From positions 1 to 34,011 of the forward strand of contig JAOAAJ010000120.1 of NCBI GenBank assembly GCA_026418935.1: a DNA stretch of 34,011 bases, written 5' to 3'. This document shows positions 20,448 to 33,318 of this stretch, piece by piece (the stretch's first letter is position 1; the number at the start of each line of letters is the position of its first letter). The notes below the pieces were generated by a model. The model was given only the letters and a program-made list of their open reading frames with translations, was not told the DNA's origin and searched no databases. This stretch comes from Caloramator sp. (GTDB lineage Bacteria > Bacillota > Clostridia > Clostridiales > Caloramatoraceae). The position numbers and the translations under genes were made by a program.

Positions 20448-21047
20448 ATGAATTTAGATTTTATAAAGAATATATTTAGACAAAGGGAAGTAAAGATAAT
20501 GGGACAAGAGGAAGAATATAAAAGATATTCTGTTGTTATTCCAATAGTGTATGATGATGAATACAAAATATTATTTGAGGTTAGATCCCATAAATTAAAA
20601 TTTCAGCCTGGAGATATTTCATTGCCAGGTGGGAAGATAGAAAAAGGAGAAACACCAAAAGAGGCGGCCTTAAGGGAATTCAAGGAGGAGATTGGAATTG
20701 ATAATGATAGCTTTGAGTTTATAGGTCAGTTTGATACATTAGTTACATATCACGGTAAGATAATTTATGTATTTGTTGTATTTATAAAAGAATTTAATTT
20801 TAAATTATCAACTGACGAGGTGGATGAAATTTTTTTAGTTCCAATATCATTTTTTAAAGAAAATATTCCTGACATGTACTATGCAACAATTAGTGCAAGT
20901 TTTGAAAAGGAAAATAAATATGAAAGGATGAATCAAAGGCTTTTAGCTTCTAAAAGCCCAATCTATTTTTATGAATATAAAGGTAGAGTAATATGGGGAA
21001 TAACTGCCAAAATTATTTACAATTTTATCAAAGAAATATTCACATAG
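20448..21047 (+). CDS. Nudix hydrolase, CoA pyrophosphatase-like
   Basis: A 199-residue Nudix protein. The Nudix box GX5EX7REUXEEXGU reads GGKIEKGETPKEAALREFKEEIGI with all metal-binding Glu residues. Just before it, VRSHKLKFQPGDISLPGG resembles the CoA-pyrophosphatase signature (RS..L..H.GQ.SFPGG), although the usual His and Gln are Gln and Asp here. That makes cleavage of CoA or a related nucleotide diphosphate likely but not certain. The start follows GGGGAG; a second Met at residue 18 is also possible, since the Nudix fold begins after it. It has its own promoter divergent from the zinc-ribbon gene. Confidence 0.85.
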   Translation: MNLDFIKNIFRQREVKIMGQEEEYKRYSVVIPIVYDDEYKILFEVRSHKLKFQPGDISLPGGKIEKGETPKEAALREFKEEIGIDNDSFEFIGQFDTLVTYHGKIIYVFVVFIKEFNFKLSTDEVDEIFLVPISFFKENIPDMYYATISASFEKENKYERMNQRLLASKSPIYFYEYKGRVIWGITAKIIYNFIKEIFT

Positions 21048-21134: not shown

Positions 21135-22280
21135 TTGAAAATACTTATTAAATCTGGTTTTATTTATTCAATTGAAAAAGAACCATTTAAGGGAGATATT
21201 TTGATTGAAGACGGTAAGATTGTAAATATTGCTCAAACTATTGAGGATAAAGAAGCACAAGTTGTGGATGCAGAGGGAAAGTTTATACTTCCTGGATTTA
21301 TAGATGCCCACAGTCATATAGGATTGTTTGAAGAAGGAGTTGGAGGTGGATATCAAGACGGTAATGAGGCAACAAACCCTTTAACTCCTGAAGTAAGGGC
21401 AATAGATGCCTTCAATCCAGATGATGTTGCGATAAAGAGAGCTCTTGATGGTGGGGTAACTACTGTTATGATTCTTCCTGGTAGTGCTAATGCTATTGGA
21501 GGTCAAGGGGCTATTTTAAAGTTAAAAGGGAATATTGTAGATAAAATGATTTTAAAGGAACCTGCAGGTCTTAAAATGGCACTTGGAGAAAACCCAAAGA
21601 GAGTATATAGTGGTAAAAATCAAACTCCATCAACAAGACTTGGTACAGCGGCATTGATTAGAGGATATTTTATGAAGGTACAGGATTATATGAATAAAAA
21701 GAAACAGTGTGAAAGGGAAAACAAAGAGTTTGTTGATAGAGATATTAAATTAGAAATAGGTGAAAGGGTATTAAAGGGTGAAATACCTGCAAGAATACAC
21801 TGCCACAGGAAGGACGATATATTAACAGCAATAAGAATTGCTAAAGAGTTTGGTTTTAAACTTGTTTTAGAACACGCTACAGAAGGATATAAAATTGCTG
21901 ATTATATAAAGGAAAACGATATTCCATTAGTTATTGGACCACTATTTGGTTTTAGAACAAAATTAGAATTAAAGGACAAAACCTACGAGGCAGTTAAGAT
22001 ATTGAGTGATAAGGGTATATTAACTTCTATAATGTGCGACCATCCAGTTATTCCTTTAGAGCATGCAAATATACACGCAGGAGTAGCTTTAAAATATGGT
22101 GCGGATGAGAAAAAAGTATTAGAGATGCTTACTATAAATCCAGCAAGGATTTTGGGAATTGATGATAGAGTGGGAAGTTTAAAGATTGGTAAAGATGCAG
22201 ATATTGTAATTTGGAGCCATCATCCCTTTGATTTAAGAGCAAAGGTTGAAGGGGTTTATATTGATGGCGAGAGATGTTAA
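21135..22280 (+). CDS. Metal-dependent amidohydrolase (imidazolonepropionase/dihydroorotase-like)
   Basis: A TIM-barrel amidohydrolase of about 381 residues. The first metal motif is DAHSHIG, followed by ARIHCHRKDD and LEHATEG with the barrel His residues, and MCDHPVIPL with the late catalytic Asp. The C-terminal GSLKIGKDADIVIW belongs to the composite beta domain. Other conserved segments are GVTTVMILPGSAN and GGQGAILK. The substrate is unknown; no histidine-degradation genes are near. A GTG at 21126 sits inside the ribosome site AGGGGGTGG, so the TTG at 21135, 6-7 nt downstream, is the likely start (MKILIKSGF). TATAAT at 21109-21114 may be its -10 box, with no good -35. A terminator follows at once. 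Confidence 0.85.
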   Translation: MKILIKSGFIYSIEKEPFKGDILIEDGKIVNIAQTIEDKEAQVVDAEGKFILPGFIDAHSHIGLFEEGVGGGYQDGNEATNPLTPEVRAIDAFNPDDVAIKRALDGGVTTVMILPGSANAIGGQGAILKLKGNIVDKMILKEPAGLKMALGENPKRVYSGKNQTPSTRLGTAALIRGYFMKVQDYMNKKKQCERENKEFVDRDIKLEIGERVLKGEIPARIHCHRKDDILTAIRIAKEFGFKLVLEHATEGYKIADYIKENDIPLVIGPLFGFRTKLELKDKTYEAVKILSDKGILTSIMCDHPVIPLEHANIHAGVALKYGADEKKVLEMLTINPARILGIDDRVGSLKIGKDADIVIWSHHPFDLRAKVEGVYIDGERC

Positions 22281-22307
22281 GTCTTCTACTTGGTAGAAGA
22301 CTTTTTA
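22279..22307 (+). terminator. Rho-independent terminator of the amidohydrolase gene
   Basis: Perfect 11-bp stem (22279-22289 with 22293-22303), a TTG loop and a T run. It overlaps the last two bases of the stop codon. Confidence 0.88.
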
Positions 22308-22314
22308 TGTTGAA

Positions 22315-22343
22315 TTGAGAATTTATGTTCTTTGTGCTATAAT
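22315..22343 (+). promoter_or_regulatory. Promoter of the pterin/folate operon
   Basis: TTGAGA (22315-22320), 17 nt, TATAAT (22338-22343) preceded by TGC, an extended -10. It is the best promoter in the window by eye and lies 31 bp before the first gene of the operon. Confidence 0.8.
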
Positions 22344-22374
22344 CTTGATAAAATCTTAAGAATGGAGTGAAGTT

Positions 22375-22728
22375 ATGATTCTTATAAAGGAATTTGAATT
22401 TGATGCAGCTCATAATCTTATACATTATCACGGTAAATGTGAAAGACTGCACGGGCATACATATAAACTTGTTGTAAAGTTAGAGGGAGAGCCAGACAGT
22501 GAAGGAATGGTTTTTGATTTTGTTGAATTAAAGAAGATAGTTAAAGAAAGAGTTATTGATAAGTTTGATCATGCATATTTAAATGAAATAATAGAACAGC
22601 CAACTGCTGAAAATATTGCTATATATGTTTGGGATGAATTATACGACGTATTAAAAAGGGATAACTGCAGATTATATGAAGTAGAGGTTTGGGAGACAAA
22701 GACGAGTGGAATAGTTTATAGGAGGTAA
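22375..22728 (+). CDS. queD: 6-pyruvoyltetrahydropterin synthase family protein (QueD-like, probable PTPS-III)
   Basis: A 117-residue T-fold enzyme with the zinc ligands FDAAH (His13) and RLHGHTY (His26, His28). The catalytic segment is KCERLHGH: Cys22 is where QueD has its Cys, and Glu23 stands next to it. PTPS proteins with Glu replacing or accompanying the Cys (PTPS-III) make 6-hydroxymethyldihydropterin directly from dihydroneopterin triphosphate and can replace FolB. The gene begins an operon with folE2, folP and folK, has no folB partner, and no other queuosine gene is near. A folate role is therefore inferred; ordinary QueD activity for queuosine remains possible. folE2 starts 3 bp after the stop. 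Confidence 0.9.
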   Translation: MILIKEFEFDAAHNLIHYHGKCERLHGHTYKLVVKLEGEPDSEGMVFDFVELKKIVKERVIDKFDHAYLNEIIEQPTAENIAIYVWDELYDVLKRDNCRLYEVEVWETKTSGIVYRR

Positions 22729-22731
22729 TAT

Positions 22732-23502
22732 ATGAAGGACGTACAAAATGAAAGAGATTTTAGAAATATACCTTTAAAGCACGTTGGAATAAATAATTTA
22801 AAGTGGCCTGTTGTTGTAAAGGATAAGAAGAATGGCACTCAAAATACAATAGCAAAGGTGTCAATATCTGTTGATTTGCCTCATTTTCAAAGAGGAACTC
22901 ATATGAGCAGGTTTGTAGAGGTTATAAAGGAACTAAAATCAGTTTCACCAAAGGATATTGAAGCAATGTTAAGTGATTTAAAGGAAAAACTTGAGGCACA
23001 GGTTGCACACTGTAGAATGGAGTTTGATTATTTTATATCAAAACCATCACCAGTAACACAGATAGAATCTCCCTATGATGTTCAGTGTGCCTTTGAGGCT
23101 ACTAAAAACCACAACTTTGATTTTATATTGGAAGTTAAGGTGCCAGTAACAACATTATGTCCTTGTTCAAAGGAGATTAGTGAATTTGGAGCACATAACC
23201 AAAGGGCGACGGTTGATATTAAAATAAAAACAGATAAGATGATATGGATTGAGGATATAGTAAAGGTAGCAGAAGAGAGTGCAAGTACGCCAGTATTTTC
23301 ACTTTTAAAGAGAAAAGATGAAAAATGGGTTACAGAAAAGGCATATTTAAATCCAAGATTTGTTGAAGATGTCGCAAGGGAAGTTGCTATAAGACTTGAG
23401 AAAAACGAAGATATTAAATGGTATAGTGTGTGTGTTGAAAGTATAGAGAGTATACACAATCACAATGCCTTTGCTTATACAGAAAAGGGGATGATGGAAT
23501 GA
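22732..23502 (+). CDS. folE2: GTP cyclohydrolase I, FolE2 type
   Basis: Converts GTP to dihydroneopterin triphosphate, the first step of folate and of queuosine synthesis. The 256 residues match FolE2, not FolE: an early PLKHVGI segment, QRGTHMSRF, and the metal-binding and catalytic signature CPCSKEISEFGAHNQR (first Cys at residue 143). FolE2 is the metal-flexible isozyme, often used when zinc is scarce, but no zinc-dependent control site is visible here. The frame starts 3 bp after the PTPS gene, with GGAGG in its last codons, and ends in an ATGA overlap with folP, so translation is probably coupled. Confidence 0.97.
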   Translation: MKDVQNERDFRNIPLKHVGINNLKWPVVVKDKKNGTQNTIAKVSISVDLPHFQRGTHMSRFVEVIKELKSVSPKDIEAMLSDLKEKLEAQVAHCRMEFDYFISKPSPVTQIESPYDVQCAFEATKNHNFDFILEVKVPVTTLCPCSKEISEFGAHNQRATVDIKIKTDKMIWIEDIVKVAEESASTPVFSLLKRKDEKWVTEKAYLNPRFVEDVAREVAIRLEKNEDIKWYSVCVESIESIHNHNAFAYTEKGMME

Positions 23503-24335
23503 GATATATAACCTTAAAGGATGGAACACGATATAATTTTGATAGAATGAAGGTTATGGGAATACTTAATGCAACTCCAGATTCATTTTATTCAAACTCA
23601 AGGGTAAGTGGTGTAGAAGAAGGAATAAAACGAGCACTTGAGATGATAAAAAATGGAGTAGATATAATAGATGTTGGAGGAGAATCAACAAGACCAGGTT
23701 CTGAACCAGTTGGATTAGATGAAGAGTTAAATAGGGTAATACCTGTAATTGAAGGGATAAGACGAGAAAATAAAAATATACTAATTTCAGTTGATACATA
23801 TAGAGCAGAAACTGCAAAGAAGGCAATTGAGGCTGGAGCTGATATTATAAATGACATAAGTGGAATGACATTTGATAAGGATATGGTAAAGGTTGTTAAG
23901 GAGTATAATGTTCCTATAATAATAATGCATATAAAGGGAACACCTAAAAATATGCAGCAAAATCCACAATATGTAAATGTACTAAAAGAGGTAAAGGAAT
24001 ATTTTATAGAAAGAATAGAATATGCAAAGGAAAATGGAATTTTAAAGGATAAGATTATTATTGACCCTGGCATAGGATTTGGTAAAACCTATGAGCATAA
24101 TATTGAGCTTATAAAAAATATTGATTATTTTAATGATTTAGAAGTTCCTATACTTCTTGCGGTGTCAAGAAAATCAAGTATTGGAATTGCACTTGGAAAT
24201 GTACCGCCTGAAGAAAGACTTGAGGGAACTCTTGCTGTTACCTGCTATGCAAGTATGAAAAATGTTGATATTATAAGAGTTCACGACGTATTGGAGAATA
24301 AAAGAGCACTTATGATGATGGAGGCATTAAAATGA
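23499..24335 (+). CDS. folP: Dihydropteroate synthase
   Basis: Joins 6-hydroxymethyldihydropterin diphosphate to p-aminobenzoate, the step blocked by sulfonamides. The 278-residue TIM barrel has MGILNATPDSFY, DVGGESTRPGS, the pterin-pocket IIDPGIGFGKT, SRKSSIG and the C-terminal RVHDV. The start ATG overlaps the folE2 stop by four bases (ATGA), and its own stop overlaps folK the same way. It comes third in an operon that supplies its pterin substrate. Confidence 0.97.
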   Translation: MRYITLKDGTRYNFDRMKVMGILNATPDSFYSNSRVSGVEEGIKRALEMIKNGVDIIDVGGESTRPGSEPVGLDEELNRVIPVIEGIRRENKNILISVDTYRAETAKKAIEAGADIINDISGMTFDKDMVKVVKEYNVPIIIMHIKGTPKNMQQNPQYVNVLKEVKEYFIERIEYAKENGILKDKIIIDPGIGFGKTYEHNIELIKNIDYFNDLEVPILLAVSRKSSIGIALGNVPPEERLEGTLAVTCYASMKNVDIIRVHDVLENKRALMMMEALK

Positions 24336-24802
24336 ATAGAGTATTTATTGCCTTTGGAAGTAATATAGGGGATAGGTATGAAACAGTAAAAAGAGCCTTT
24401 GAGCTTATTGAAGAGAATGGGATGAAGATAATTAAAAAATCAAATATATATGAAACAGAACCCTATGGTTATAAAAACCAGCCTCCATTTATAAACGGAG
24501 TTATTTTAGTTGAAACAGAACTTACTTGTAGAGAAGTTTTAGAAAGATTGCTACAAATAGAAAAACAGCTTGGAAGAGAAAGAATAATAAGATGGGGACC
24601 AAGGACAATTGATTTAGACATTATATTCTATAATTGTGAAATATATAACGAAGAGGATTTAAAGGTTCCACATCCAGATATGCAAAATAGAGAGTTTGTG
24701 TTAAAACCCCTATGTGATATTGAACCTGATTTTGTTCATCCTATTTTAAATAAAAGTGTTAAAGAAATATATGTGTTACTAAATGAAATGAGTAGAAGCT
24801 AA
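24332..24802 (+). CDS. folK: 2-amino-4-hydroxy-6-hydroxymethyldihydropteridine pyrophosphokinase (HPPK)
   Basis: Transfers pyrophosphate from ATP to 6-hydroxymethyldihydropterin, giving the FolP substrate. The 156 residues show the family order: IAFGSNIGDR at the N-terminus, YETEPYGYKNQPPFINGV, LQIEKQLGRER, the catalytic WGPRTIDLDIIFY with two metal-binding Asp, and VPHPDMQNREFVLKPL. The ATG overlaps the folP stop (ATGA). A terminator whose stem overlaps the stop codon ends the operon. With FolE2 and PTPS-III it gives a complete GTP-to-dihydropteroate route without FolB, except for the p-aminobenzoate supply. Confidence 0.97.
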   Translation: MNRVFIAFGSNIGDRYETVKRAFELIEENGMKIIKKSNIYETEPYGYKNQPPFINGVILVETELTCREVLERLLQIEKQLGRERIIRWGPRTIDLDIIFYNCEIYNEEDLKVPHPDMQNREFVLKPLCDIEPDFVHPILNKSVKEIYVLLNEMSRS

Positions 24803-24832
24803 ACATCACGTTTTATGCGTGATGTTTTTTTA
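24801..24832 (+). terminator. Terminator of the folate operon
   Basis: A 10-bp stem (24801-24810 with 24818-24827), a 7-nt loop and a continuous T run. The folK stop (24800-24802) lies in the 5' arm. The rest of the gap to the next gene is AT-rich, with no clear promoter. Confidence 0.9.
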
Positions 24833-24958
24833 TTGTCATATTTCTTAATTAAATATAGGATTTTTTTAATATTTTATTAATAATCCAAAAAACTATTTAT
24901 TAAAGATTCTAAAAGTATTATAGTATTTTTTGTGCAAAAAAATTATGGAGTGATATTT

Positions 24959-33139: not shown

Positions 33140-33318
33140 AACAAACCTTGTGTAGAGGTGCCTATGTCAAGAGTACTAAAGAGGAGCCTGGCAGGTTATG
33201 ATACTTTTGGAAAGGGGTCTTAGGCCGAAGGAAATGGTTGCCAAACTATTTGCCTGGCTGTTTGCATAATATGCACTCAGCTGTCACCAAAGGGTGGAGA
33301 GCTACAAAGGTTTTGTTT
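33140..33318 (+). ncRNA. Lysine riboswitch (L box) aptamer
   Basis: Conserved L-box segments appear in order: GTAGAGGTGCC, AAGAGTA, AAAGGGGTCTTAGGCCGAAGG, TTGCCTGGCTG, TATGCACTCAGCTGTCACC and GGTGGAGAGCTAC. The P1 strands are 33140-33151 and 33305-33318 (core AAACCTT with AAGGTTT). Lysine binding should stabilise P1 and cause termination ahead of the aspartokinase gene, the known logic for lysC in Firmicutes. Confidence 0.95.

Follow-up and report, generated by a model that had tools for sequence, protein, structure and literature searches.

A Cys-Glu PTPS-family enzyme as the probable replacement of FolB in a folate operon of Caloramator

Enzymes of the PTPS family that stand in for FolB are known from malaria parasites and from many bacteria. 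Their signature, that of PTPS-III, is ExxHGH, while QueD carries CxxxHGH, and proteins with CExxHGH have been described as PTPS-I/III hybrids able to act in both pathways; Clostridium botulinum is listed in the same source among the examples with more than one PTPS (PMC5041015). For the Plasmodium enzyme, the glutamate is reported to be required for the formation of 6-hydroxymethyldihydropterin from dihydroneopterin triphosphate, a compound that the E38C variant no longer makes, forming the conventional product instead (PMC2229834). Neither PTPS-III as a substitute for FolB nor the CExxHGH motif is new to the literature (PMC5041015, PMC2229834, PMC3223725).

Here we describe a folate operon in a stretch of 34,011 nucleotides from Caloramator sp. 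(contig JAOAAJ010000120.1; “the window”) in which, judging from sequence and gene context, FolB is very probably replaced by a PTPS-type enzyme. Our literature search listed no publication dealing specifically with this operon in the lineage; the family may already be covered by Pribat 2009 and Phillips 2012, reportedly the original work on bacterial PTPS-III and PTPS-I/III. With FolB replacement as such established, we offer a modest correction concerning what the hybrid motif implies.

Organization of the operon and the proposed pathway

In the ORF list of the window, PTPS, folE2, folP and folK are consecutive on the forward strand between positions 22375 and 24802 (Table 1). The tight packing and the lack of a folB gene claimed in a preliminary description of the operon are both borne out: PTPS and folE2 are separated by 3 bp (22729-22731), and the remaining junctions are 4-bp ATGA overlaps (folE2/folP at 23499, folP/folK at 24332). 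All four proteins score above the Pfam cut-offs, and FolE2, FolP and FolK also exceed the NCBIfam equivalog cut-offs. The PTPS protein matches PF01242 with 135.5 bits (cut-off 22.4) and passes the QueD equivalog TIGR03367 (106.3 bits, cut-off 89.25), with no PTPS-III model among its matches. Its active site had been read correctly, with Cys22 and Glu23 preceding HGH and His26 and His28 in place.

Table 1. Features of the folate operon and its flanks (positions in the window)
Feature	Position	Strand	Remarks
Terminator-like hairpin, amidohydrolase side	22279..22303	+	3' of the upstream amidohydrolase gene; divides it from the folate operon
Promoter-like site TTGAGA-N17-TATAAT	22315..22343	+	11/12 consensus; TG before second hexamer
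PTPS-family (COG0720) enzyme, proposed FolB replacement	22375..22728	+	117 aa; PF01242 1.2e-39; motif C22-E23-R-L-H26-G-H28 (CExxHGH)
folE2, GTP cyclohydrolase IB, predicted to make dihydroneopterin triphosphate	22732..23502	+	PF02649 4.6e-93; NF010200 284 bits (cut-off 215)
folP, dihydropteroate synthase	23499..24335	+	PF00809 1.2e-86; TIGR01496 339 bits (cut-off 162.6)
folK, hydroxymethyldihydropterin pyrophosphokinase	24332..24802	+	PF01288 1.2e-42; TIGR01498 154.6 bits (cut-off 54.1)
Intrinsic-terminator-like hairpin with T run, operon end	24801..24827	+	terminator scan

The promoter-like site is the best of 20 in the scan; since 14.4 would be expected by chance, weight can be given to nothing but its quality and its position. 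Terminator-like sites numbered four against 0.8 expected. Taken with the flanking hairpins, the promoter-like site points to the four genes being a unit of their own, the scan being a match to consensus only. Riboswitch control of the operon was considered and rejected: no riboswitch, THF-type or other, was found nearby at the Rfam gathering threshold, and a relaxed-threshold search over 22100-24900 gave chance-level matches only. Elsewhere in the window, a glmS ribozyme (1395-1544) and a lysine riboswitch (33145-33312) score well above the Rfam gathering score.

We consider it highly probable that the four genes are transcribed together and lead from GTP to dihydropteroate without FolB, by way of the Cys-Glu PTPS. 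FolE2 would convert GTP to 7,8-dihydroneopterin triphosphate, whose side chain the PTPS, a putative zinc enzyme in which His13, His26 and His28 probably bind the metal, would cleave directly to give 6-hydroxymethyl-7,8-dihydropterin, Glu23 diverting catalysis from the product of classic PTPS enzymes; FolK would then pyrophosphorylate this compound and FolP would couple the FolK product to p-aminobenzoate. By analogy with Plasmodium, such a route should need neither FolB nor a separate triphosphatase, and it is from the work on PTPS-III in Plasmodium and bacteria that we infer the PTPS reaction and the part played by Glu23. This would be one more lineage with FolB replaced by a PTPS, and its upper folate pathway would be non-canonical at both steps (FolE2, PTPS). 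The non-FolE cyclohydrolase had been put forward as a second unusual isozyme; FolE2 is indeed the only GTP cyclohydrolase I found, with no match to the FolE profile PF01227 in the source genome or any of the 17 genomes of its family, but as roughly one in three bacterial genomes lacks folE and has folE2 in its stead (PMC1971073), the use of folE2 here is not a rarity.

Folate and queuosine paralogues in the source genome and its family

The assembly of the source genome (G000, in which the window is contig 86) totals 2.01 Mb over 134 contigs, with 96.4% completeness and 0.7% contamination. A folB gene outside the operon, a queC and a second queD were among the genes that the preliminary description proposed to look for. 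The PF02152 profile, positive in 10 of 14 known genomes used as a control, detected no FolB in the whole source genome, nor in any of the 17 genomes of the family sample, of which 12 reach 90% completeness or more with no more than 5% contamination. A second queD is likewise absent from the source genome, where the PTPS of the operon is the sole COG0720 protein, and a search for queC gave no true QueC but one weak match (22.5 bits, positions 3-67 of 210). This lies inside a 271-aa ORF which, by reading, we take to be LarE-like, the next ORF being presumably LarB-like; it was rejected as a QueC on the strength of the partial, weak match, the LarE-like appearance and the LarB-like ORF downstream.

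The source genome does encode the tRNA-guanine transglycosylase Tgt (L047). Its presence, with neither QueC nor a QueD-type PTPS found, suggests salvage, and that the source species obtains its queuosine in this way is a plausible guess. Unlike the source genome, its genus mates G012 and G013 have both queC and queD. Comparison with the 3408-base queCDE locus of a genus mate (L024) yielded nothing equivalent in the source genome, a single 45-base match being obtained; this fits gene loss, while an assembly gap is also possible as the cause of the absent queD, given the contig number and completeness of the assembly.

The PTPS proteins of the family were collected by a Pfam search with no bias towards the Cys-Glu pair, and their motifs were then read. 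CExxHGH was found in 15 of the 17 genomes (all except G004 and G016), in proteins of 117 aa in most intact copies, and the pair is therefore not a matter of chance. In all 15 loci the gene is followed downstream by folE2 and folP, folK falling beyond the stretches examined. A second, longer paralogue with CxxxHGH and no Glu (open frames of 145-163 residues) is present in 12 genomes and, broken by stops, in G015; these are exactly the 13 genomes in which QueC was detected (E<1e-20), G000, G011, G014 and G016 giving no QueC at that threshold. Three genomes have the Cys-Glu PTPS without the CxxxHGH paralogue, and none of the three has queC; the assemblies of G014 (64% complete) and G011 (82%) are poor, so that their absences count weakly. 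In L024, the CxxxHGH gene sits between queC and a gene that we named queE by reading. Because the Cys-Glu protein keeps with the folate genes and the CxxxHGH protein with queC, the former is, by sequence and neighbourhood, assigned as the folate paralogue and the latter as QueD. Cys22 is retained in all 15 Cys-Glu copies, whether an intact separate QueD accompanies them (11 genomes), a broken one (G015) or no queC at all (three genomes). Decay was considered for the broken queD and queC of G015, where sequencing errors are likelier because its Cys-Glu PTPS is cut short and its folP and amidohydrolase genes are in pieces. In G016 (94% complete), PTPS, FolB, FolE and a strong QueC were all without a match.

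Distribution and meaning of the Cys-Glu motif

For the wider distribution, relatives were taken from named loci using the seeds IKEFEFD and GKCE[RK]LHG, the second of which means that Cys-Glu was partly selected for. The best 80 of 480 belong, by title, to Clostridia, Tissierellia, Negativicutes, Synergistota, Thermotogota and a few others, and Thermobrachium celere DSM 8682, whose PTPS is 95% identical, is the nearest named relative among them on the basis of this protein. According to ORF comparison in these best 80, folE2 neighbours the PTPS in 73, folP in 39 and folK in 37, counts that are lowered by contig ends and distant homologues. QueC adjoins PTPS in two of the best 80, both from Caloramator with a separate QueD. 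In an alignment of 95 Cys-Glu rows, a sample partly chosen for this pair and excluding one protein (L142, see below), H13, C22, E23, H26, H28, D65, H66 and E79 are invariant, and E107 is kept in 94 rows with one gap. A tree of 61 of 125 rows (every fifth Cys-Glu row from named loci and all others) requires two changes for the Cys-Glu state, giving one large group and the single L142; its long-branch joins should be viewed with caution, and its depth is not relied on.

In the class sample of 98 genomes, PTPS matches are present in 23, FolB in 26 and QueC in 16, and 15 of 16 QueD genes lie near queC. CExxHGH occurs in only two of the 98, the source genome and G106, too few for an anti-correlation with FolB to be examined. 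The G106 protein (L142) has the motif CENLHGH and groups in the tree with QueD-type proteins; its gene lies 23 bases from queC, and the genome also has FolB. The motif is therefore insufficient to claim FolB replacement. The preliminary description had taken a Glu accompanying the Cys as a mark of FolB-replacing PTPS-III enzymes; ExxHGH, the absence of FolB and the folate operon agree with this here, but as a general marker the pair fails on G106, and the weight for FolB replacement rests on the operon context and the absence of FolB, not on Cys-Glu alone. Two further observations were made in the class sample: G029, G060 and G108 combine QueC with a CSNIHGH protein and gave no match for FolB, and four genomes (L150, L152, L156, L157) contain PTPS-family ORFs of 207-218 residues that read GEAQYLHGH and have no Cys at the usual place.

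As the motif is exactly the published CExxHGH (PMC5041015), the protein could be a true PTPS-I/III hybrid, one enzyme serving folate through Glu23 and queuosine through Cys22. That it passes the TIGR03367 cut-off and that Cys22 is invariant would agree with this, but all 13 queC-bearing genomes of the family own a separate CxxxHGH paralogue (one of them broken), located between queC and queE in L024. The Cys-Glu protein is thus not the QueD of a queC genome, since every queC-bearing family member has a separate paralogue and the source genome has no QueC apart from the weak match covering about 65 of 210 positions in the presumed LarE-like ORF. With relatives keeping a separate QueD and the source genome without queC, the hybrid motif is not evidence of a double role, and we regard such a role as unlikely. 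An ordinary QueD with an incidental Glu, FolB being replaced by some other unrecognised enzyme, would also pass the TIGR03367 cut-off and would resemble the Cys-Glu protein of the FolB-bearing G106, and a FolB substitute of a different fold, the transaldolase-like FolB2, has been proposed in other bacteria (PMC1971073). Against this, folE2 and folP accompany the gene in all 15 family loci, it persists in three family genomes without queC, and relatives have a different gene in the queuosine cluster: CxxxHGH is present in our protein, the queC/queE neighbourhood is not, and it is the L024 paralogue that lies beside queC and queE. We find this explanation very improbable.

The remaining alternative concerns the substrate, which could be dihydroneopterin monophosphate supplied by a nearby Nudix hydrolase, a possibility raised for some archaeal PTPS-III relatives; the monophosphate is mentioned for archaea in PMC5041015. 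A Nudix gene lies two genes upstream of PTPS (20448-21047 in the window) with the amidohydrolase gene between them, likewise in L004, L051 and L052, and adjoins PTPS in L005, L007, L008, L012, L053 and L056 (certain species being represented twice), overlapping it in some. Several relatives, however, have no Nudix match adjoining PTPS, and the protein scores best with a CoA pyrophosphatase model (80 bits, below the cut-off of 134) and reaches 25.8 bits with the dihydroneopterin triphosphate diphosphatase model (cut-off 103), and we consider this supply route very improbable. We tentatively suggest, as a possibility short of even probability, that CExxHGH here is a folate-only active site in which Cys22 and Glu23 both take part in the FolB-type cleavage, with no queuosine relic or capacity. 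If so, the label “PTPS-I/III hybrid” would be wrong for many clostridial, negativicute and synergistete enzymes. The finding of the pair in a folate-linked enzyme beside a separate QueD, and also in a QueD-like protein from a FolB-bearing genome, calls for caution in assigning function from motifs only.

Comparison with known systems

The FolE2 protein corresponds to GTP cyclohydrolase IB (COG1469), exceeding the PF02649 and NF010200 cut-offs, with no notable difference. With QueD (PTPS-I; structures 4NTK, 4NTM and 3QN0, homologue 2OBA), the PTPS shares the His triad, the Cys of CxxxHGH (mutated in 4NTK) and the Asp-His pair. Its best PDB sequence matches are 2oba (1.2e-21) and 4ntm (5.1e-19); both chains read CGRLHGH and, in contrast to the Caloramator protein, have no Glu after the Cys. 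The PTPS of Plasmodium falciparum is alike in family, in having a Glu three residues ahead of the HGH motif's first His and in a genome with no recognised dihydroneopterin aldolase; it has lost the Cys (FRETLH), whereas Cys22 is retained here beside Glu23.

The protein resembles the bacterial PTPS-III and PTPS-I/III enzymes (COG0720) in the CExxHGH motif, the COG0720 gene within a folate cluster and the FolB-less genome. In keeping with PTPS-III, the protein is a member of PF01242, carries ExxHGH (E23-R-L-H-G-H) and is encoded in a cluster of folate genes without folB. It differs from bacterial PTPS-I/III in that the family's Cys-Glu enzyme coexists with a separate QueD, or stays where queC is absent, so that a hybrid role is not needed in the family. 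Although its motif is that described for the PTPS-I/III hybrid, we favour reading the protein of this clade as an enzyme dedicated to folate.
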